From Alphaproteobacteria bacterium (lineage in GTDB: Bacteria; Pseudomonadota; Alphaproteobacteria; Micropepsales; Micropepsaceae): DNA of 36,791 nucleotides. Position numbers and translations under genes: made by a program. Every line of letters starts with the position of its first letter. Position 1 is the first letter of the stretch. The notes below the pieces were generated by a model. That model saw nothing but the letters and a program-made list of their open reading frames with translations. It had not been told where the DNA came from and did no database searches. The DNA lies in the NCBI GenBank assembly GCA_013140995.1, contig JABFRX010000036.1, positions 1 to 36,791 of the forward strand. Direction: 5' to 3'. This document shows, in pieces, positions 27,132 to 35,645 of this stretch.

Positions 27132-27497
<366 letters not shown>

Positions 27498-27569
27498 CTC
27501 TCATTCGGAAGGAAGTGTAGGAAATTGCTGCGATTCCAGCCGATGTCGGGCATTTGAAATCGCGCGGCT

Positions 27570-27694
27570 TGCAGCAAAACACATACAAAACTGCCGCTAC
27601 GCTGCTACATTGGCTGAGTTGCGCGAAAAACGGTGCTACGAAGATGCTACATCGCCGCTACTTGTAGCGGGATCAGTTGGTAGCGGGCCGCGCC
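27570..27694. repeat. pentamer-array repeat, copy 1 (GCTAC type)
   Basis: First of two related non-coding units. Five direct GCTAC sites start at 27596, 27604, 27635, 27646 and 27657, and one inverted GTAGC at 27664, giving the hairpin GCTAC-TT-GTAGC. The core between sites 2 and 3 (ATTGGCTGAGTTGCGCGAAA...) is nearly the same in copy 2. The 11-base steps place sites on one DNA face. It reads as a multi-site protein target rather than a gene. No long frame with coding character is present. Confidence 0.8.
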
Positions 27695-27751
27695 GGCCGT
27701 TCGACGCCTCATACCAGCCGCCTCAACATCTCACTCGAACATCCCCCATTT

Positions 27752-27782
27752 CGTTATGGCCGGGTCAAGCTCGGCCATGACG
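27752..27782. repeat. REP-like palindrome
   Basis: CGTTATGGCCG (27752-27762) and CGGCCATGACG (27772-27782) are inverted with one mismatch around a 9-base centre. CCCCA and TGGGG further out (27744 and 27790) extend the symmetry. The ATGGCCGGG...CGGCCAT pattern is familiar from intergenic repeats in alphaproteobacterial genomes. It lies between the two pentamer arrays. Confidence 0.55.
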
Positions 27783-27841
27783 ATTCTTTTGGGGCGTGAG
27801 AAATTTTGAGGCTTGCGATGACACGCCTCAGATCGCGTCGT

Positions 27842-27974
27842 TGTAGCAAAACACGTCGTAAACTGACGTTACGGCGTTACATTGGCTGAATTGCGCCAAA
27901 AATGCCGTTACTTGGACGTTACATCGGTGTTACTTGTAACGGCATCAGTCGATGCCGCGTAGCGGGTGCGCGCC
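27842..27974. repeat. pentamer-array repeat, copy 2 (GTTAC type)
   Basis: Second unit, offset 272 bases from copy 1. Five direct GTTAC sites start at 27868, 27876, 27907, 27918 and 27929, and one inverted GTAAC at 27936. Every spacing (8, 31, 11, 11, 7) equals copy 1, but all six pentamers carry the same C-to-T (or G-to-A) change. Flanks shared with copy 1 include AGCAAAACAC, ACATTGGCTGA and TAGCGGG. The hairpin is kept by the compensating change. Confidence 0.8.
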
Positions 27975-28109
27975 GCTGTTTTGCGCGCATGAGGGTTCGT
28001 GCGCATCGCGCGGGGGTTACAGGGCTCAACAGTTTCAAGTCGCAGCCGCGCACGGCGAGGGTGCGGGAAAGCACGGCCGACGGTCGAAATCGAGCCGCAC
28101 TGTAGGTGA

Positions 28110-28124
28110 GAACATTTGTAGAAC
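28110..28124. promoter_or_regulatory. possible LexA (SOS) box GAAC-N7-GAAC
   Basis: GAAC (28110-28113), seven bases ATTTGTA, and GAAC (28121-28124) form the direct repeat bound by alphaproteobacterial LexA (GTTC-N7-GTTC on the other strand). It is 100 bases upstream of the broken antitoxin-like gene. An 8-base pattern of this kind is expected about once by chance in a window this size, so confidence is low. The rest of 27975-28223 shows no gene. Confidence 0.3.
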
Positions 28125-28223
28125 ATTGCGGCGCGTTTGTCAACCGGATTTTGTGCGGCGGCTTGTGCGCGATACGGGTGGCGATCATGCTGCCTTAGGC
28201 TACGCGCACCGAAGCGAGACGAT

Positions 28224-28501
28224 ATGCGAAAGCGCAAGAGTAACTACGACGTGCCGGAGCTAACCGCGCGCGACTTCAAGCGCATGCGCCCGGCGCGTGA
28301 GGTGTATCCGGGGCTTGTTGAGGCGTATGAGCGAACACGCGGACGGCCGCGCAAGGCGGCGACGAAGGTCGCGGTGACGTTGCGGCTTGATCGCGAGGTT
28401 GTGGCGGCGCTGAGGGCATCAGGCGCGGGTGGCAGACGCGAACGAATGCGGTTCTGGCGAAGTGGGTTCGGAAGATGCCGACGAAGCGTTTGGGGGGTTG
28501 A
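28224..28501 (+). pseudogene. DUF4415/BrnA antitoxin-like gene, frameshifted copy
   Basis: A relative of the intact gene at 33402. It opens MRKRKSNYDVPELTARDFKR and keeps the ribbon-helix-helix part (KVAVTLRLDREVVAALRASG). At about 28426 a single base is missing compared with the other copy (GGCGCGGGT against GGCGCCGGGT). Restoring it recovers the C-terminus W-Q-T-R-T-N-A-V-L-A-K-W-V-R-K-M-P-T-K-R and a stop at 28501. As read, the frame runs on as arginine-rich nonsense. About 30 bases upstream of the ATG are also similar to the other copy. No BrnT-type toxin gene is adjacent. Confidence 0.82.
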
Positions 28502-28615
28502 GGGTTCGGTGTGGTGCGCGCCGCATGTGGTCGCGAAGACTTCCGAGATTGGTGCGTGTCCCCGGAATCCGTCACGCCGCACCGGCGCAGCGACGGCTCG
28601 TGCACGCAGCGTCGC

Positions 28616-29542
28616 TTACGCCGCAACTTCCACGGCCGCGCGAAACCGCTTGGCGGCGCGGCCACGGCGCAGCCCCGTGATGTCGAGGACAAGGCCGATC
28701 ACGATCAGCACGACGCCGATGCGCATGGACCACGCGGTGACCACCCAGCGTATCGCCTGATGCGGCCGGCCTTCCGCAATTCGCGGTGCCACCGTTCCGA
28801 CCAGTTGGCCGTGCGCCTGCGCATAATCCGCCATCACGCCGACAATGGTGCGCGACAGATCGTCGGCGGGCATCCACGTTCCGGTCAACGCACGCAGCTG
28901 CGCGGCGACCTTCTGCGGCTGCTCGTCATGGTAAGCTTGTTGCGCGAACAGAAAGTGAGCCTGATCGGCGTCCAGCGGCCGGAAGCGGCTTATGTCCAAT
29001 TTGGACCGGCGCTTGGGTGCCTCGTCCAGTACCGCCGACATCGACGGCGCATCGGGATCCAAGACCGGCATTTGCGATGATCGCTCGACCGTCCGTGCCC
29101 AAGGGCTCCCGGCCTTAAGCGTCGAAACGGGCGTCACGTTGCTGGTCAGCGCTGCGGTGATCCAAAAAACGAAGGGCCAACAGAAAAACAAAACCAAGCC
29201 GCGCCAGAACCACGATCTAATGAGGAACGACGTTCCTGCCCAAAAAAACCAAAGCGTGACCGGCAACAGGCCAAACTGAACGCGGATCGTCTGGTCCATC
29301 GGCTCCATCACCTCATAGGACCGGGCCTGGAGATGTCCGCTACCGGTGATGTGGCGGGTCAGTTCGTCGGGAACAAGAAGGCTCGCCGGGTCCAGAACGC
29401 CGGGTGTTCCGGGCTCCGGCCAGACGACGACGACGGCAAAGACTGTGAGCGCGATGCCAAGCCGGCATAGAGGCCCGCTAAACATGCGCAGCCGCCGCGC
29501 TCGCCCGGCGAGCGCATCGATGCGGGCGGGAAGGCTATTCAC
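28616..29542 (-). CDS. four-helix membrane protein of the TelA operon (remote relative of the tandem pair)
   Basis: A 308-residue protein with predicted membrane helices at about 24-41, 91-109, 113-132 and 264-289, an Arg-rich N-terminus, and a soluble domain of about 130 residues between helices 3 and 4. In that domain AHFLFAQQAYHDEQPQKVAA aligns with AYVRAQIAFVRGDRAAAVKI of the upstream pair, so the three look like one family. The Cys pair of the other two is absent. The start is GTG 29542, overlapping the TelA stop by 8 bases. It is the last gene of the operon. The function is unknown. Confidence 0.78.
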   Translation of the reverse strand: MNSLPARIDALAGRARRLRMFSGPLCRLGIALTVFAVVVVWPEPGTPGVLDPASLLVPDELTRHITGSGHLQARSYEVMEPMDQTIRVQFGLLPVTLWFFWAGTSFLIRSWFWRGLVLFFCWPFVFWITAALTSNVTPVSTLKAGSPWARTVERSSQMPVLDPDAPSMSAVLDEAPKRRSKLDISRFRPLDADQAHFLFAQQAYHDEQPQKVAAQLRALTGTWMPADDLSRTIVGVMADYAQAHGQLVGTVAPRIAEGRPHQAIRWVVTAWSMRIGVVLIVIGLVLDITGLRRGRAAKRFRAAVEVAA

Positions 29543-30641
29543 CCGTGTGTTTTTCGAGGAGAGGTTGCTTGGTCCCGCAAAGGCCCGCCGCCATGTCGTC
29601 CCGAAGTTTGGCGAGCTCCGCTAAAGCGCTGTTGCGCTTCTCGGCACCATCGCTATAGGCCGATTGGACGTCGGCAAGCGTCTTGATGACGTTTTCGTGC
29701 ACCGCGCGCAACGTCTCGATGTCGATCACTTGGCGCTGGCTCGCGCGCGCGGTGGCGACCGCGTTCTCGTGCAGGATCTCCGAGTTGCGCTTCATGAAAT
29801 AATTCGTGGCGTCGTCGATATCGTCGGCGAGCTTTACGGCGTCGCGCTGTTCGTTTAGCGCCAAAGCCATCACGAATGTCCGCTTCCAGGCGGGAAGGGT
29901 CAGCCGTTCGATCGTCTGGAATTTCTCGAGCAGCACAACGTTGTTGGCTTGCATCAGCCGGATCATCGGCAGCGTTTGCAAGGCGCTGTGCTGAAGAACC
30001 GAAAGATCGCCGATGCGCTTCGAGAGCGCCTGGCGGCTCATCTCGAGCCGGTTGATCGATTCCGATGTGGCTAAGCTCGGCGGTTGCTGCCGCAACGCCT
30101 CGATTTCTTGATCGAGATCGGCCATGCGCAGCTCGCCCGCGCGGACGTGCGTGGCAAGAACGCCGTGTTCTTCTGTGACACCCGCATACATCGCCTCGAA
30201 CATTTCGGCGCGGTTGGTCAGGCGGTCCAGGGCGCCGTCGATATTGCCGACGATCTTCCCGATCTGCGTTTCGACGCTCTTGAAGCGCGTCATCGCCTTC
30301 TCTTTCGAGAGCGAGAAATACCGTGCCACCGGGCCGAGCACGGGGACGCGATGCCAGCCGTTGTCGAGCGACGTCAGGTCGAAGGATTGAGCCGCGATCA
30401 TGACTTCGCTCAGCTTGCTCCCGACCTCGTCCAAGTCGTCGGCGCGCGCTTGCGCCAGCAGTGTGTCCGCGTAACCGGCGGTCGTAATGCCGATGTGTTG
30501 GCCGAATTGCGCGACGGACAACGGCGATTGCACGTCGATCGTCGCCGCCAATGCGCGGGCCGCGTCTTCGTCTACGCTGGGCGCGAGCGCTTGCGGGGTG
30601 AGTTGCACGGGTGCGGCCGTGATGTTTGCGCGAGAGGTCAT
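29535..30641 (-). CDS. TelA-family (toxic anion resistance) protein
   Basis: A 368-residue, soluble, mostly helical protein of the TelA family (PF05816). Family stretches: ALQTLPMIRLMQANNVVLLE (220-239), IERLTLPAWKRTFVMALAL (244-262), DDATNYFMKRNSEILHENA and VIDIETLRAVHENVIKTLAD. TelA proteins are named for tellurite resistance and occur with Ter-type stress genes; the biochemical role is not established. ATG 30641 overlaps the upstream gene's stop (ATGA) and the next gene overlaps its stop, so it sits in the middle of a coupled operon. The N-terminal 60 residues are variable and Ala-rich. Confidence 0.88.
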   Translation of the reverse strand: MTSRANITAAPVQLTPQALAPSVDEDAARALAATIDVQSPLSVAQFGQHIGITTAGYADTLLAQARADDLDEVGSKLSEVMIAAQSFDLTSLDNGWHRVPVLGPVARYFSLSKEKAMTRFKSVETQIGKIVGNIDGALDRLTNRAEMFEAMYAGVTEEHGVLATHVRAGELRMADLDQEIEALRQQPPSLATSESINRLEMSRQALSKRIGDLSVLQHSALQTLPMIRLMQANNVVLLEKFQTIERLTLPAWKRTFVMALALNEQRDAVKLADDIDDATNYFMKRNSEILHENAVATARASQRQVIDIETLRAVHENVIKTLADVQSAYSDGAEKRNSALAELAKLRDDMAAGLCGTKQPLLEKHTGE

Positions 30642-31366
30642 GACGCTTTCTTCTCCGAGGTTTCGCCGGTCGTGGCCAGGCGCTTGCGGATGGTTCGAAT
30701 TTGCTCAAGGGAATCGTCGGCGTTGCCTACGCTCTGCGCGACCGCAAGCGCGTGGTGCCGCCAAACGGGAAACAAGCGTTTCTCGATGTCGTTGTAGCGA
30801 TCGAGCAAACCGGACAGACAGTCGGTCGCGATCGCCATCTGCGCCGAGGCGAGCCGGTTCGAGGCGATCACCGTTTCGAGGTTCGCCGCACGCCTCTGCA
30901 GTCTTGCGACGTTCGGCACTTGGGCGTTTGCACCGCGCAGAAACCGGATGGTTTGTTCCGCCAGCGCTTCGTGGGCCGGCGCGATGGCGGCGAGGCGCTC
31001 GATGTCGCCTTTCATGCCGTTGAGCGCCCGGCGGCCGTCGGCGGCCGCTTGCGCCAGTCGCGCCATGTCCGCGTCGAATCTGTGGGCGGCGACTTCCAGT
31101 TCCAGCCGCACCTCGAGGTCCGCACCGGTGAAGCGGTGCCACCATCCGTTGCGGCGGGCGACCCGGTCGATATCCAGATGCGTCATGGCAACCACGAGCG
31201 CGTCCATGGACTCGCTCAACGAACGCGCCGGCGTTCCGGTGAGCAGCGACTGATCGGGATCGAACGGCTGAAAGGCGCGATCGAATGCGGCAATCGCGGC
31301 CTCGCCCTCGGGGGTAAGGCCGTCATACGGGTTCGCGATCGCGGTGGGCGCGGCTGCATCGGCCAT
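30638..31366 (-). CDS. divergent TelA-like helical protein
   Basis: A 242-residue soluble helical protein not recognisable as a standard family at first sight. Its IEKRLFPVWRHHALAVAQS (194-212) matches IERLTLPAWKRTFVMALAL of the adjacent TelA protein, and RRNGWWHRFTG (71-81) matches SLDNGWHRVPVLG. The order and spacing of helices also agree, so it is probably a shortened, diverged TelA paralogue. Its stop overlaps the TelA start, suggesting an equimolar pair or heteromer. It lies 24 bases after the tandem membrane genes. Confidence 0.75.
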   Translation of the reverse strand: MADAAAPTAIANPYDGLTPEGEAAIAAFDRAFQPFDPDQSLLTGTPARSLSESMDALVVAMTHLDIDRVARRNGWWHRFTGADLEVRLELEVAAHRFDADMARLAQAAADGRRALNGMKGDIERLAAIAPAHEALAEQTIRFLRGANAQVPNVARLQRRAANLETVIASNRLASAQMAIATDCLSGLLDRYNDIEKRLFPVWRHHALAVAQSVGNADDSLEQIRTIRKRLATTGETSEKKAS

Positions 31367-31390
31367 AACCTATTAGGTAACAGACCGCGC

Positions 31391-32320
31391 TTAACCCGCC
31401 GTTGCCGCAGCGCTTCGAGCGTAGCGCGATGTTTGTATTTCGCCGGCGTGCGCCGCCAATTGTTCAACGCGCGTTAACTGCCGGGTCAAGAAAAAGCACA
31501 ACGTCCACGCTGCGATAGCGCAGAGCGCCGGAATAGTCGCGAACCAAGCGAACGCCGCAAATCGCCATTGGCGTTGCTCTTCGTTTATGCAGCCCAGCCT
31601 CGTGAAGCAAACCGTTGTAACACCCCGGTAACGATTCTGAAGAAATTGCAGCCGGTAGGGCGCTTCGACCCGCGATCCCAAATTTTCCGGATCGATGTTT
31701 TCGCTGATCTTGACTGCTGCCGCGCGATCGCCGCGCACAAACGCGATCTGCGCGCGAACGTAAGCCCTCGTAGGCCCCGCGAGTTCAGGCGCAAGCCGGA
31801 AGAGGCTGCCCCCGTTCAGCTGGTCGATCCGGATCGGACCTTGGATTGGCTTCACCGCCAGCAGCTTTTCAGCGGTCCCGATGCTTACGGTCTTGGCGGC
31901 ACCGGCACCGGCGACGGAACCGGGGACAACGATCTTCGGAAGCGGGGAAAGCACGTCGCCGGCCAAGAAAATGATCGCGGCCGGTGTGATGAATTGCTTT
32001 TGCTTTTTCCCCAACGCCCAAACCAGAAGGCCCAACCCGGACAGCTGGATCGCGGCAATGCTCACCAGCAAGATCCATTGCACGGCTTTACGATGGCCCG
32101 TGCCGGCATTGTAAGGCTCACCATAGGAAAAGTACTGCGGACCAAACCCCGCAAGCCAATTTTCCGGTACGTGAACGTCCGTGATCTGCGGCGAGCTGGT
32201 CTCGAAATGCGCAAGCGCACCGAGGATCGCAAAGCAGGCGAGCCCCAATGCGCAAACGGTGGCGTTGAACGCGCGAGCGTGACGGGCGCGTAGCGCCTCA
32301 AGTTTCAGTTGGTTTGTCAT
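31391..32320 (-). CDS. four-helix membrane protein, tandem copy A
   Basis: A 309-residue protein: basic N-terminus, helices at about 18-38, 81-103, 111-124 and 253-279, and a domain of about 125 residues between helices 3 and 4, probably periplasmic. That domain ends in VCFTRLGC, two Cys five residues apart next to the last helix. The tail (TRQLTRVEQLAAHAGEIQ) is helical. ATG 32320 is chosen because MTNQLKL is also the start of copy B; a GTG two codons earlier exists. 51 of the first 60 residues equal copy B. No family is recognised. Confidence 0.8.
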   Translation of the reverse strand: MTNQLKLEALRARHARAFNATVCALGLACFAILGALAHFETSSPQITDVHVPENWLAGFGPQYFSYGEPYNAGTGHRKAVQWILLVSIAAIQLSGLGLLVWALGKKQKQFITPAAIIFLAGDVLSPLPKIVVPGSVAGAGAAKTVSIGTAEKLLAVKPIQGPIRIDQLNGGSLFRLAPELAGPTRAYVRAQIAFVRGDRAAAVKISENIDPENLGSRVEAPYRLQFLQNRYRGVTTVCFTRLGCINEEQRQWRFAAFAWFATIPALCAIAAWTLCFFLTRQLTRVEQLAAHAGEIQTSRYARSAAATAG

Positions 32321-32345
32321 ACTCACGAAAGGTAACGGCGATCGG

Positions 32346-33242
32346 TCAAGCGTTGGTTGCGTAGCGCGATGCTTGGATCTGCCCGGCTTGCGCCGCCAGT
32401 TGTTCGACGCGCGTCAACTGCCGGGTCAAAAAAAAGCACAGCGTCCACGCGGCGATGCCACCTAGCGCGAGAGCGGTCGCGAGCCAAACGAATGCTGCAA
32501 AATTCCATTGGCGTTGCTGCTCGTTCACGCAGCCCAGCCTCGTGAAGCAGACCGTTGTAAGTCCGTTGTAACGGTCCTTAAGAAACTGCAACCTATAGGG
32601 CGCTTCGATCGGCGAACTCAAAGTCTTTGGATCGATGTACGCGCTGATCCTGCGTGCAGCTTTGCGGTCGCCGCGCGCGAACGCGATCTGTGCGCGAACG
32701 TATGCTTTCGCCGGGCCGGCAAATTGAGGCGCGAGCTGGAAGGGGCTTCGTCCGTTCAGCTTGTCGAGCCGTACGGGCCCAGGGATCGATTTCATCGCCA
32801 GCAGTCTTTCCGCGGTTTCCACACTCACAGCTTTGCTGGTGCCGGCTACAATGAGCTTCGGAACCGGGCACAGCACGTCGCCGGCCAAGAAGATGATTAT
32901 TGCCGGCAGGATGAATTGCTTTCGCTTCTTCCTGAGCGCCCAGACCAGAAGGCCCAATCCGAAAATTTGGATCGCGGCAAAGCTCACCAGCAGGATCCAC
33001 TGAACAACCTTGCGAGGGCCGGTGCCGACCTCATAGGGCTCGCCAGAAGCAAAGTGTTGCGGACCAAACCCCATAAGCCAGTCTGCCGGGATGTGAATGT
33101 CCGTAATCTGCGGCGAGCCCGTTTCGAAATGCGCAAGCGCACCGAGGATCGCAAAGCACGCGAGGCCCAACGCGGCGACGGTTGCGTTGAATGCGTGAGC
33201 GTGACGGGCGCGTAGCGCCTGGAGCTTCAGCTGGTTTGTCAT
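32346..33242 (-). CDS. four-helix membrane protein, tandem copy B, first gene of the TelA operon
   Basis: A 298-residue paralogue of copy A with the same four helices, VCFTRLGC motif and helical tail. The main difference is a shorter segment after helix 3 (IVAGTSKAVSVETAERL against a Gly/Ala-rich insertion in copy A). It is 25 bases upstream of copy A and is the promoter-proximal gene; the 159-base gap to the divergent antitoxin-like gene should hold the promoters for both directions, but I could not define them. Confidence 0.8.
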   Translation of the reverse strand: MTNQLKLQALRARHAHAFNATVAALGLACFAILGALAHFETGSPQITDIHIPADWLMGFGPQHFASGEPYEVGTGPRKVVQWILLVSFAAIQIFGLGLLVWALRKKRKQFILPAIIIFLAGDVLCPVPKLIVAGTSKAVSVETAERLLAMKSIPGPVRLDKLNGRSPFQLAPQFAGPAKAYVRAQIAFARGDRKAARRISAYIDPKTLSSPIEAPYRLQFLKDRYNGLTTVCFTRLGCVNEQQRQWNFAAFVWLATALALGGIAAWTLCFFLTRQLTRVEQLAAQAGQIQASRYATNA

Positions 33243-33401
33243 ACCCCTAAGAGTAGCGGCAATTGGTCAAGCCTTGGTTGAGGCTCTGCAGGGCGGCGCT
33301 AGGCGGCGCGCGCCCCGTATGGTGGATAAAATGTTACGGGACAAATTTGATTGCAGCCCGGGGGAACAAGGCCTCAGCGACGCGCACGGAGGCGAAACGA
33401 C

Positions 33402-33683
33402 ATGCGAAAGCGCAAAGGTGAAGACTACGATGTGCCGGAGCTGACCGCGCGCGACTTCAAGCGCATGCGTCCGGCGCGGGAGGTTCATCCGCGTCTCGTC
33501 GAAAGTTATGAGCGCGCACGGGGACGGCCGCGCAAGGCGGCGCCGAAGGTCGCAGTAACGTTGCGCCTTGATCCCGAAATCGTGGCGGCGCTCAGGGCCT
33601 CCGGCGCCGGGTGGCAGACGCGAACGAATGCAGTTCTCGCGAAGTGGGTGAGGAAGATGCCGACGAAACGGCCACGGGTTTGA
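33402..33683 (+). CDS. DUF4415/BrnA antitoxin-like ribbon-helix-helix protein, intact copy
   Basis: A 93-residue protein: basic N-terminus (MRKRKGEDYDVPELTARDFK), a middle R-G-R-P-R-K-A-A segment, and a C-terminal DNA-binding part VAVTLRLDPEIVAALRASG followed by W-Q-T-R-T-N-A-V-L. This is the BrnA antitoxin pattern (DUF4415). BrnA normally neutralises the RNase-like BrnT encoded just upstream; no such gene is present here, so this is an orphan or a solo repressor. It is divergent from the membrane-protein operon, which it could regulate. ATG 33402 matches the other copy; the frame extends upstream to 33351. Confidence 0.83.
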   Translation: MRKRKGEDYDVPELTARDFKRMRPAREVHPRLVESYERARGRPRKAAPKVAVTLRLDPEIVAALRASGAGWQTRTNAVLAKWVRKMPTKRPRV

Positions 33684-33713
33684 CGTTCTGGCGTTTTGAG
33701 TCCACTGGGAAAA

Positions 33714-34044
33714 TCACAACGAAAGAGCAGTTTTGTGCACGAATTTTCGCTTGGTGGCGTCGAAGTGGACGTCGTTCACTTTCACGGAGCCAACATGGAA
33801 TTCGGCGCTCAAGAACTTGGCTCCACTGACGCGCGTTCGCTGCGTCCTCGGTGCGTGCACCAACGATCCGGTAGATTCCGTAACTCTCTTCGTAATCGTC
33901 CAGATCGTTGTTGAATGTGCAGTCTAGGAAATAAACTGCGTCGTTCGTCTTCACGCGTATCCGCCTCGGCAGATCGTAGAAGTCGTCATAGTCGAAGGGC
34001 AGCCACTCCGGCCAGTCCGGGTGTTTTTCCGTTTGCGTAATCAC
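33714..34044 (-). pseudogene. unknown small protein gene with a probable 1-base frameshift
   Basis: The first part reads well as protein (HPDWPEWLPFDYDDFYDLP, then VYFLDCTFNNDLDDYEESYG). After about 33825 the frame turns into Arg-rich nonsense that runs under the opposite gene, while the +1 frame gives AKFLSAEFHVGSVKVNDVHF and ends at TGA 33714. The joined gene would be about 110 residues and would end cleanly 30 bases from the convergent antitoxin-like gene. The length, 331 bases, implies one extra base (or two lost). The alternative is an intact 150-residue gene ending at 33592. The family is unknown. Confidence 0.55.
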
Positions 34045-34059
34045 CTGCCTCGATCCGAC

Positions 34060-34413
34060 CTATCCGTGTCGCGTTTTGTTGAACGTGCGCTCTAACCACC
34101 GCGCTACACCGCCGGCGCCGGTCGCCGTCAGGGTCGCCAGCATCAGCGCGGCGGCGCCGATCGATGCGGTCATTGCGATGATCTCGGCGCTTGGTACGCC
34201 GGTTTCGGGTGGTGTCAGCAGCTGTGCGGCGAAGCCGGTGCCGATGCCGGCTGCGATCCAGATGGCGGTACGCTGCAGAATCGCGCGGCGCCGTGCGCGC
34301 TCGCAGATGCGTTGCATGACGCGGACGCGAAACGCAGGGTCGAACGCCGGTACGGCGCTCTCCAATGCTGCGCGCAGTTCGGCGTCACGCATCGTGGTCT
34401 TGTCCGTTGTCAT
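34060..34413 (-). CDS. small membrane protein, probable anti-sigma partner of the ECF factor
   Basis: A 117-residue protein. The N-terminus is soluble (RDAELRAALESAVPAFDPAFRVRVMQRICERARRR), followed by two hydrophobic segments (TAIWIAAGIGTGFAAQLL and IIAMTASIGAAALMLATLTA). The layout, together with a start that overlaps the ECF sigma gene by 29 bases, suggests a membrane anti-sigma factor. No zinc-binding HxxxCxxC motif is present, so this is inferred from position and topology. Confidence 0.65.
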   Translation of the reverse strand: MTTDKTTMRDAELRAALESAVPAFDPAFRVRVMQRICERARRRAILQRTAIWIAAGIGTGFAAQLLTPPETGVPSAEIIAMTASIGAAALMLATLTATGAGGVARWLERTFNKTRHG

Positions 34414-34930
34414 CGTCTCCCAACACCTGCCGCAGGCGCGCGCGGCCGCGCGCCACGTGCGACTTTACTGTACCGACGGGCATCTGTAACGCGGTTGCCG
34501 CCTCTTCGTGGGTGAAGTCCGCGCCGAGGCACAAAGCAACTGCCGCGCGCTGCGTTTCCGGCAGCGACTCCATCGCTTGGCGCAGCGCGAGCTTCAGGTC
34601 CGTATCGATGCCGTCGGTTGATGCCGTGTCCGAATAGGCCTGATCGCGTGCGCGTGCGCGGAACCACGCCCGGCTCTGGTCGCGCCAAACGCGATAGGCG
34701 ATGCCGCAAACATAGGTGCGAAACCGTGCGCGTCCGTCGAAGCGCGCGAGTGTCTCGAAGGCGCGGACGAATGCTTCTTGCGCGATGTCTTCGGCGTCGC
34801 CCGTACTGCGCAGCAGGCGCGATAGGAAACTTCTCACCGCAACTTGGTGCGCATCGACAAGCCGCCCGAAGGCACGTATGTCGCCGGATCGAGCACGTGC
34901 GATCAGCTGCGCCTCCTCGTCGTCGGTCAC
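34385..34930 (-). CDS. ECF-type RNA polymerase sigma factor
   Basis: A 181-residue sigma-70 family factor with only regions 2 and 4. Region 2: LVDAHQVAVRSFLSRLLRS, DAEDIAQEAFVRAFETLARF, FRTYVCGIAYRVWRDQ. Region 4: AMESLPETQRAAVALCLGADF with helix-turn-helix THEEAATALQMPVGTVKSHVARGRARL. It begins with GTG 34930, overlapping the upstream stop (GTGA), and overlaps the next gene, so the three are one coupled unit. Target promoters are not evident in the window. Confidence 0.93.
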   Translation of the reverse strand: MTDDEEAQLIARARSGDIRAFGRLVDAHQVAVRSFLSRLLRSTGDAEDIAQEAFVRAFETLARFDGRARFRTYVCGIAYRVWRDQSRAWFRARARDQAYSDTASTDGIDTDLKLALRQAMESLPETQRAAVALCLGADFTHEEAATALQMPVGTVKSHVARGRARLRQVLGDDDNGQDHDA

Positions 34931-35331
34931 TTCGGCCTAGGACCGAACATCGCGATGAAAAAGAACCCAAGCGCTATCACGCCGAACACCGCTGCTAGCA
35001 CGAAGAACACTTCTTGGGTGTTCGAGTTGTTGGCGAAGCGCGAGGCGAGCCCGAAGCCAACGGCAAGCGCCGTGTTGACGACAACGGCGGCGGCCGGCGT
35101 CTGCGCGCGATCCCAGCCGGATGAATTGTCCGAACGGTCGCCAGCTGCGATGTCGAGAAGCTCAACCGGCGGGTCCTTGCCTTGCTCGACCAAGGACTTG
35201 ATGACGTCCATCGCTTGTTTGCTGCGCCGTCCGCTCTGCGTCAATTCGACGAACGCCCAAATCATGCCGAATAGCGGGAAGATCAACCACCAAAAGCGCA
35301 CGAACAAATCGTCAAAGCTCATCTCGACCAA
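34927..35331 (-). CDS. two-helix membrane protein of the ECF sigma cassette
   Basis: A 134-residue protein: N-terminal helix (FWWLIFPLFGMIWAFVEL), a cytosolic stretch with AMDVIKSLVEQGKDPPVELL, and a second hydrophobic region (VVVNTALAVGFGLASRFA and VFFVLAAVFGVIALGFFFIAMF). The V-E-Q-G-K-x-P-P segment recalls DUF6249-type proteins found beside ECF sigma genes, a weak similarity. The start is ambiguous: TTG 35331 has GGAG 6 bases upstream, and ATG 35322 lies three codons later. It is the first gene of the cassette and may carry the stress signal. Confidence 0.75.
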   Translation of the reverse strand: MVEMSFDDLFVRFWWLIFPLFGMIWAFVELTQSGRRSKQAMDVIKSLVEQGKDPPVELLDIAAGDRSDNSSGWDRAQTPAAAVVVNTALAVGFGLASRFANNSNTQEVFFVLAAVFGVIALGFFFIAMFGPRPK

Positions 35332-35420
35332 GGTCGTCTCCGTTTAATTGGTTCGAACTTAGTAGCCGCCGCATGGAGTGTTGGATGCGGACGTGTGTTA
35401 ACAACATATTGACGCCGCTT

Positions 35421-35433
35421 GGTCCTGGACCAC
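35421..35433. promoter_or_regulatory. palindrome TGGTCC-T-GGACCA
   Basis: A perfect 6-bp inverted repeat with a single central base, in the 314-base gap between the ECF cassette and mraZ. A TTGACG hexamer at 35410 could be a -35 element for a rightward promoter that overlaps it. It may be an operator, but nothing identifies the regulator. Confidence 0.3.
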
Positions 35434-35500
35434 GAGATATGGAGGGCATGTCTCCAGAGTTTCTTCTAATTCATTGAAATCGCTTGGGTTCGTAGTTGCG

Positions 35501-35525
35501 TCCCAAGCTGTCCCATGCTATCCCA
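35501..35525 (-). promoter_or_regulatory. three MraZ-type boxes in 10-bp register
   Basis: TCCCA starts at 35501, 35511 and 35521, which is TGGGA on the minus strand repeated exactly every 10 bases. MraZ of E. coli binds TGGGN repeats separated by 5 bases, the same geometry. The array lies 121 bases upstream of mraZ. Two further TGGGT sequences occur at 35587 and 35596 with a 9-base step. This supports autoregulation of the division cluster by MraZ. Confidence 0.65.
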
Positions 35526-35645
35526 TGAGCAACCGGGCGCGGGGTCATGCGCCCATTTTCATTTCGGGTAACGCCGGTGTCGGCGGTGGGTTTTTTGGGT
35601 CGTGGCGATCTGTCGGCATTGCATTGAGCGGTTTGGAGGGCGGTC

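Follow-up and report, generated by a model that had tools for sequence, protein, structure and literature searches.

Two non-coding units downstream of rnpB in this alphaproteobacterial genome share one layout of short sites and differ by the same base at site after site, which raises the question of what they are and why their sites should change together. Within the window, as we call the whole stretch of 36,791 nt that was analyzed, a repeat search delimits the units as a 124-nt two-copy repeat at 27569-27692 and 27841-27964 (73% identity; start-to-start distance, 272). The original prediction had described two units 272 bp apart, each with five direct pentamers and one inverted pentamer; this was borne out, and the site spacings of 8, 31, 11, 11, and 7 are identical in both (Table 1). 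The spacers between sites 3 to 5 differ between the units, as had also been claimed, and in array 1 a central GGC-N8-GC element separates sites 2 and 3.

Table 1. Arrays and associated features of the window
Feature	Position	Strand	Description
rnpB (RNase P RNA, class A)	27138..27494	+	Left neighbor of the arrays; context
Array 1 (GCTAC family)	27569..27686	+	A-rich block; five direct GCTAC sites starting at 27596, 27604, 27635, 27646, and 27657; two inverted GTAGC sites, at 27664 and (extra) 27680
Array 2 (GTTAC family)	27841..27961	+	Five direct GTTAC sites starting at 27868, 27876, 27907, 27918, and 27929; one inverted GTAAC site at 27936
12-mer GCTGCGACTTGA	28035..28046	-	Between the LexA promoter and the arrays
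LexA/SOS box GTTC-N7-GTTC	28110..28124	-	Overlaps promoter-like sequence directed towards the arrays
-35-like hexamer TTGACA	28138..28143	-	17 nt before a -10-like hexamer within the LexA box; putative promoter element

The two units are members of a dispersed intergenic family with about 36 arrays in this genome. A whole-genome DNA search returned many more copies, and a sequence-only model was trained on 28 of them, 22 from this genome (G000) and 6 from G002; G001 to G010 denote the other genomes of the genus, and L numbers denote loci. With this model, 28 matches were found in G000 at E < 1e-6, of which 22 were the training copies. A third family, of the GTTAG type, added 8 matches in G000 (E < 2e-4) and was matched 16 times in G005 (E < 2e-7) and 5 times in G006 (E < 3e-5). 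The arrays are spread over many contigs; in G002, 18 were found. In a family-level search, 10 of the 11 genus genomes contained array matches, versus 1 of 85 others; this sole match outside the genus, in G052, falls within a predicted gene, and we did not accept it as real, although it is counted among the 111 array rows used for the neighbor-gene and LexA-box tallies. Array length can vary, because at L184 (G005) a GTTAG-type array is lengthened by additional 11-bp repeats, CCGTTAGATAT and near copies of it.

The arrays are nearly always intergenic: three of the 111 rows fall inside a gene predicted by our home-made gene caller. Among the 93 arrays with both neighbors, the flanking genes are tandem in 49 cases, divergent in 24, and convergent in 20, compared with 46, 37, and 11 for array-free gaps of the same loci. 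These 93 copies show no preference for promoters, and the idea that they are operators of neighboring genes was dropped. Array strand shows no bias relative to GC skew in G002 (10 of 18).

The pentamers differ among copies and among species. GCTAC, GTTAC, and GTAAC occur in G000, together with the GTTAG family, and G002 has mainly GTAAC, with GCTAC at site 4. Beyond these two genomes, where pentamers were read for part of the copies (e.g., 7 of 19 matching copies in G001 and 13 of 25 in G009), we found GCTAC in G001, GTTAC/GTTGC in G003, GTTAG in G005, GTAAC/GTCAC in G007, GTCAC/ATCAC in G009, and GTAAC with GCAAC at site 3 in G010. For scoring, we kept the 76 of 111 rows with at least three recognizable GNNAC sites; the 35 rows left out comprise 21 of the GTTAG type, the remainder being diverged or decayed.

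Within a copy, the sites tend to agree. Across 25 copies in G000, the two central letters of the pentamers had a pairwise agreement of 0.895, and none of 2,000 shuffles among copies reached this value (mean, 0.424; maximum, 0.542). The claim that a change at every site exceeds random drift is thus upheld in G000. Agreement in 16 copies of G002 was 0.389 versus 0.310 after shuffling, again reached by 0 of 2,000 shuffles. Every scored copy agrees in G001 and G009, which makes the shuffle uninformative there, and within-copy agreement was not significant in G007 and G010 (the observed value was reached by 240 and 2,000 of 2,000 shuffles, respectively). The six-of-six switch proposed for the window holds for the window pair; it does not extend to all copies, some of which have exceptions at one or two sites (e.g., L043, L052, and L130), nor to G002 and G010, in which an odd pentamer is fixed at one site. 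The original prediction had also named a common dispersed repeat with independently varying pentamers as the outcome that would speak against it: the repeat is dispersed, and the G000 shuffles show that its pentamers do not vary independently.

When 14 GCTAC copies are placed in register, the pentamer columns are 0.92 identical versus 0.55 for all other columns, which points to selection on the sites. Among 14 pairs of orthologous loci between species (not all independent; four pairs of DUF3631 paralogs were excluded), side and orientation of the array are kept in 11, several of them with different pentamers, and this suggests that arrays at orthologous loci descended in place. Such descent is not proven, because the spacers of these arrays resemble each other no more than those of unrelated copies do (0.651 versus 0.646).

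To find what the arrays might work with, we compared neighbor genes between loci, and DUF3631 emerged as one recurrent family. Its genes, with PF12307 domain scores above the curated cutoff, occur in 9 of the 11 genus genomes and in 4 of 85 others of the family; G008 has neither arrays nor DUF3631, and G004 has arrays and no DUF3631 match. At 11 of the 14 genus loci, an array on the opposite strand either overlaps the 3' end of the DUF3631 gene or comes after it; of the other three, L156 ends at a contig edge and L165 and L166 lack a clear array. The pentamers of these DUF3631-linked arrays differ among the genus loci. G000 has two DUF3631 genes, both outside the window, and their 3' arrays are GCTAC and GTTAC, the two types of the window, where the arrays stand alone with no initiator-family gene directly beside them. 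This correspondence supports the earlier proposal that the arrays may have diverged in specificity together with their proteins.

In the eight genomes where both could be read (G000, G001, G002, G005, G006, G007, G009, and G010), the commonest scattered pentamer among the copies read is that of a DUF3631-linked array in seven, as judged by reading, G010 being the exception. No matching DUF3631 gene was found in these incomplete assemblies for the GTTAG arrays of G000 or the main GTAAC family of G010. The protein seems to be fast-evolving, because the syntenic DUF3631 proteins of G000 and G002 share 57% identity, versus 88% for a neighboring protein. An intact Walker A motif is usual for this ATPase class. 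It is degenerate in nine of 13 aligned DUF3631 proteins of the genus, which are thus unlikely to be ordinary helicases, and intact in the other four, as it is in outgroup proteins, e.g., those of L206 to L208. The structure predicted for the G002 protein (mean pLDDT, 74.7; pTM, 0.60) has a C-terminal winged-helix-like arrangement. Its best PDB matches are MCM helicases, followed by PriRep1, AAV Rep40, and NrS-1, all weak (TM about 0.3), so that the predicted fold bears a weak resemblance to replicative helicases and initiators.

Arrays behind DUF3631 genes are also found outside the genus. Among 33 DUF3631 tails from the genus and outgroups, 13 have at least four CGNNACA/TGTNNCG sites within 260 bp, and 10 of these 13 lie outside the genus; 0.12% of 1,679 control windows from the same loci reach at least four CGNNACA sites, a degenerate motif that was chosen after the tails had been seen. 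Fewer than four sites occur in 20 of the 33 tails, and six have none. The motif misses arrays written in other letters, such as the GTTAG type in L255, L257, and L258 and four copies of GGTAACGG in L248; L273 has just two sites. A scan of 16 outgroup tails for exact doublets was abandoned, as the central letters vary there and only two (L275 and L249) pass. Strictly mirrored order, with at least two sites on each side, occurs in 7 of the 33 tails, all outside the genus, and facing repeats are present in four plasmid or phage records as well, whereas the genus arrays are more one-sided. Two Streptomyces plasmids that carry DUF3631, prim-pol, and integrase genes have 13 CCGCTAC matches each in the 460-bp stretch that was read, and similar arrays lie behind DUF3631 in a Nonomuraea record and a Pseudomonas phage. 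Similar layouts are present behind DUF3631 genes of other phyla. An A-rich block and an A/T tract are visible in the array alignment.

A second recurrent companion is the LexA box, given as GTTC-N7-GTTC for alphaproteobacteria in the accessible text of PMC3323433. A box lies within 700 bp on the 3' side of 54 of the 111 arrays, versus 3 of 111 on the other side. For 52 of these 54 arrays, the box is directed into the array, and a -35-like hexamer often precedes it. These 52 arrays correspond to 50 distinct boxes, paired arrays having one box in common; the array loci contain 78 LexA boxes in total in 579,545 bases. Strict boxes directed into an array no more than 350 bp away number 7 of 13 in G000, 9 of 32 in G002, and 11 of 15 in G009, and the distance from a strict box to the downstream array ranges from 7 to 235 bp. 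For half of the arrays, no LexA box was present within 700 bp; all seven arrays read in G001 belong to this group. The DUF3631 genes share this feature, with a LexA box upstream of the matched part in 10 of 13, including all nine with a degenerate Walker A.

The 12-mer GCTGCGACTTGA, compared by position, adjoins arrays in all eight of its occurrences in G009 and in 8 of 10 in G000 (one of these arrays is weak). As a control, the reversed pattern was counted; it occurs six times in G000, and the excess over it is clear only in G007 (22 versus 0), G009 (8 versus 1), and G005 (11 versus 4). A hairpin-like stretch followed by GCTGCGACTTGA is seen between the LexA box and the array in the window (28035-28082, minus strand) and at L119, L192, and L193. 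The stems before GCTGCGACTTGA look unlike between copies; hairpin and 12-mer are possibly an SOS-induced RNA leader.

On comparative grounds, we consider it probable that the window units are iteron-like arrays bound by initiator-like DUF3631 proteins, in a module of the rep-ori type. Iterons were one of the options in the original prediction, and the initiator-like character of the recurrent partner lends them support. A DUF3631 protein would use its C-terminal winged helix to bind the pentamers; DNA damage would raise the level of this protein and at the same time lift transcription into the arrays; and the nucleoprotein array would then open or mark DNA in rep-ori fashion, making the arrays SOS-inducible, origin-like elements. 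Neighboring GCTAC and GTTAC arrays would be the sites of two paralogous proteins of one genome. The lack of a strand bias with GC skew and the loss of Walker A in most genus proteins speak against a DUF3631-driven origin, as does the prediction, in the accessible part of PMC3218068, that RepAM is a rolling-circle initiator, which implies a different mechanism.

The closest known arrangement to the DUF3631-array module is the PICI replicon. As described in the available sections of PMC6092414, its origin lies immediately 3' of the initiator gene and has two iteron sets around an AT-rich region. SaPI/PICI rep-ori and the DUF3631 module thus share an initiator gene with the origin, or its candidate, directly 3'. 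Unlike in SaPI/PICI, the initiator here is DUF3631, most genus DUF3631 proteins lack a normal Walker A, and the genus has many gene-less chromosomal arrays with LexA promoters. RepAM, a DUF3631 (PF12307) protein of actinobacterial AICEs such as pMEA300 for which the rolling-circle role is predicted (PMC3218068), has the same Pfam domain as the arrays' partner, and the Streptomyces DUF3631 plasmids carry their CCGCTAC arrays at the gene's 3' end. In contrast to the genus arrays, the RepAM account, in the part of PMC3218068 available, includes neither dispersed arrays nor a LexA link, and the word "iteron" is absent from the text of that paper. The alphaproteobacterial SOS regulon, in the accessible text of PMC3323433, has the same box and a -35-like element at promoter spacing, whereas the putative promoter here leads into a non-coding array and not a repair gene. 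The dispersal of the arrays and the LexA/SOS promoters reading into them look new: a literature search, with preprints and most subscription journals outside its scope, returned no description of dispersed DUF3631 arrays with LexA promoters.

A serious rival is a selfish repeat family that follows its protein. The arrays and LexA promoters would then be non-autonomous miniature mobile elements, multiplied within each species from one master copy next to a DUF3631 gene or moved by, e.g., a Y1 (RAYT-like) transposase, and shared pentamers would reflect recent common descent more than function; we place this somewhat below an even chance. Positions common to species are indeed few (14 orthologous-locus pairs among the loci read, DUF3631 paralogs excluded), yet side and orientation are kept in 11 of them. 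Copying alone does not give sites far better conserved than spacers. The odd pentamer that G002 and G010 each have fixed at one site looks like the mark of a master copy. The absence of arrays after rnpB in six relatives and the lack of promoter preference among the 93 copies also fit mobile elements. Y1 transposase genes are present in 10 of 11 genus genomes (25 matches, 20 loci read), and 3 of the 20 loci have a LexA box 47 to 70 bp upstream; an array, weak in one case, sits no more than about 2.1 kb away from 4 of the 20, but most Y1 loci read have no array. A RAYT as the cognate enzyme was rejected for that reason. End repeats and target duplications of the arrays were inspected by eye. 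The Y1 loci with an upstream LexA box or a nearby array are L306, L308, L310, L318, L320, and L321.

The accessible parts of PMC3733652 and PMC3116915 describe REP/REPIN sequences as dispersed intergenic repeats whose types are species-specific and go with a partner gene; the arrays are alike in all three respects. In these sources, REPs are 20- to 40-bp palindromes with a GTAG or CGTC tag and are RAYT linked; unlike them, the arrays are about 110 bp long, have no conserved hairpin, and are linked to DUF3631. Separately, a palindromic repeat in the window, TGGCCGGGTCAAGCTCGGCCATGACG at 27757-27783, is common in the genome and the family and fits the CGTC-tagged REPs of PMC3733652, as far as its available text describes them.

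It is less likely, and in our judgment improbable, that the arrays serve a second SOS regulator, with a LexA-controlled DUF3631 protein binding arrays past LexA promoters and blocking or ending transcripts. The arrays do lie a short way (7 to 235 bp) downstream of strict LexA boxes directed into them, and a degenerate Walker A need not stop a protein from binding DNA. However, among the 52 arrays with an inward-reading box, the gene past the array points in the same direction in 29 and in the opposite direction in 22, a LexA box is missing from about half of the arrays, and the array of the DUF3631 gene itself sits at the 3' end of that gene.

An arm-type recombinase, attachment, or partition site at the edge of an accessory region is very unlikely. 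In this genome, rnpB and a mraZ-like gene are about 8 kb apart (27495-35645), with the arrays at the rnpB edge; in six relatives, the mraZ-like gene lies within about 365 bp of rnpB (five by script, G003 by reading), and the sequence-only model finds no array after rnpB in those six. The attachment, mobilization, or partition role that had been tied to the place after rnpB is therefore not borne out, given arrays on many contigs. About 36 arrays in one genome also argue against such a site, as does a recurrent partner that is initiator-like and neither a recombinase nor ParB; a Pfam scan of ten neighbors and paralogs found no recombinase or integrase. A LexA-type box, GTTCTTTATTTGTTC, is seen 57 bp past rnpB in L213 (G002) and L216 (G006), with no array there.

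That the pentamer switch reflects covariation in a structured or coding RNA can hardly be right: inverted pentamers are able to pair with direct ones, and one C-G pair of the consensus fold is U-A in 6 of 28 sequences, but the same pair is broken in 7, fold z-scores of six single copies range from -0.03 to -1.66, the consensus fold has only 8 pairs with a covariation term of -0.12 (one weak hairpin/stem), and no frame is consistently open (at best 37 of 109 on the strand read from the LexA promoter and 70 of 109 on the other). Folding of single copies and of the consensus thus explains no switch, and the RNA covariation named in the original prediction as a way to overturn it was not found. 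L138 and L142 (G002) looked open through the array by eye, yet no frame stays open over the set. The idea of a stop-codon cassette (GTAGC, GTAAC, and GTGAC give a stop on one strand) was discarded, since in an unscripted reading most G002, G004, G007, and G010 pentamers lack one.

If the arrays are initiator-binding sites, they and their proteins form a natural series with many switches of specificity and a layout that stays recognizable, and the protein-DNA recognition code of the family could be read by comparison. The array signature could be used to locate candidate origins of DUF3631 plasmids, islands, and phages. Were the scattered copies active, these bacteria would have SOS-controlled initiator sites chromosome-wide, which would matter for the long-standing problem of DnaA-independent replication induced by damage. 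The full form of this idea is speculative, and we hold it to be rather unlikely: a DNA-damage-inducible set of dozens of origin-like chromosomal sites, in which a domesticated initiator-derived protein and its scattered arrays, each controlled by LexA, would switch their recognition letters jointly across the genome, as coevolving partners, and would initiate or reshape replication after damage.

Two other features of the window were noted. An ORF at 28224-28500 (plus strand), which we take to resemble a BrnA-type antitoxin, has a reading that seems to break off. The adjacent membrane-protein-like ORFs at 31391-32326 and 32346-33242 (minus strand) are 73% identical over 304 aligned positions and represent a tandem duplication.
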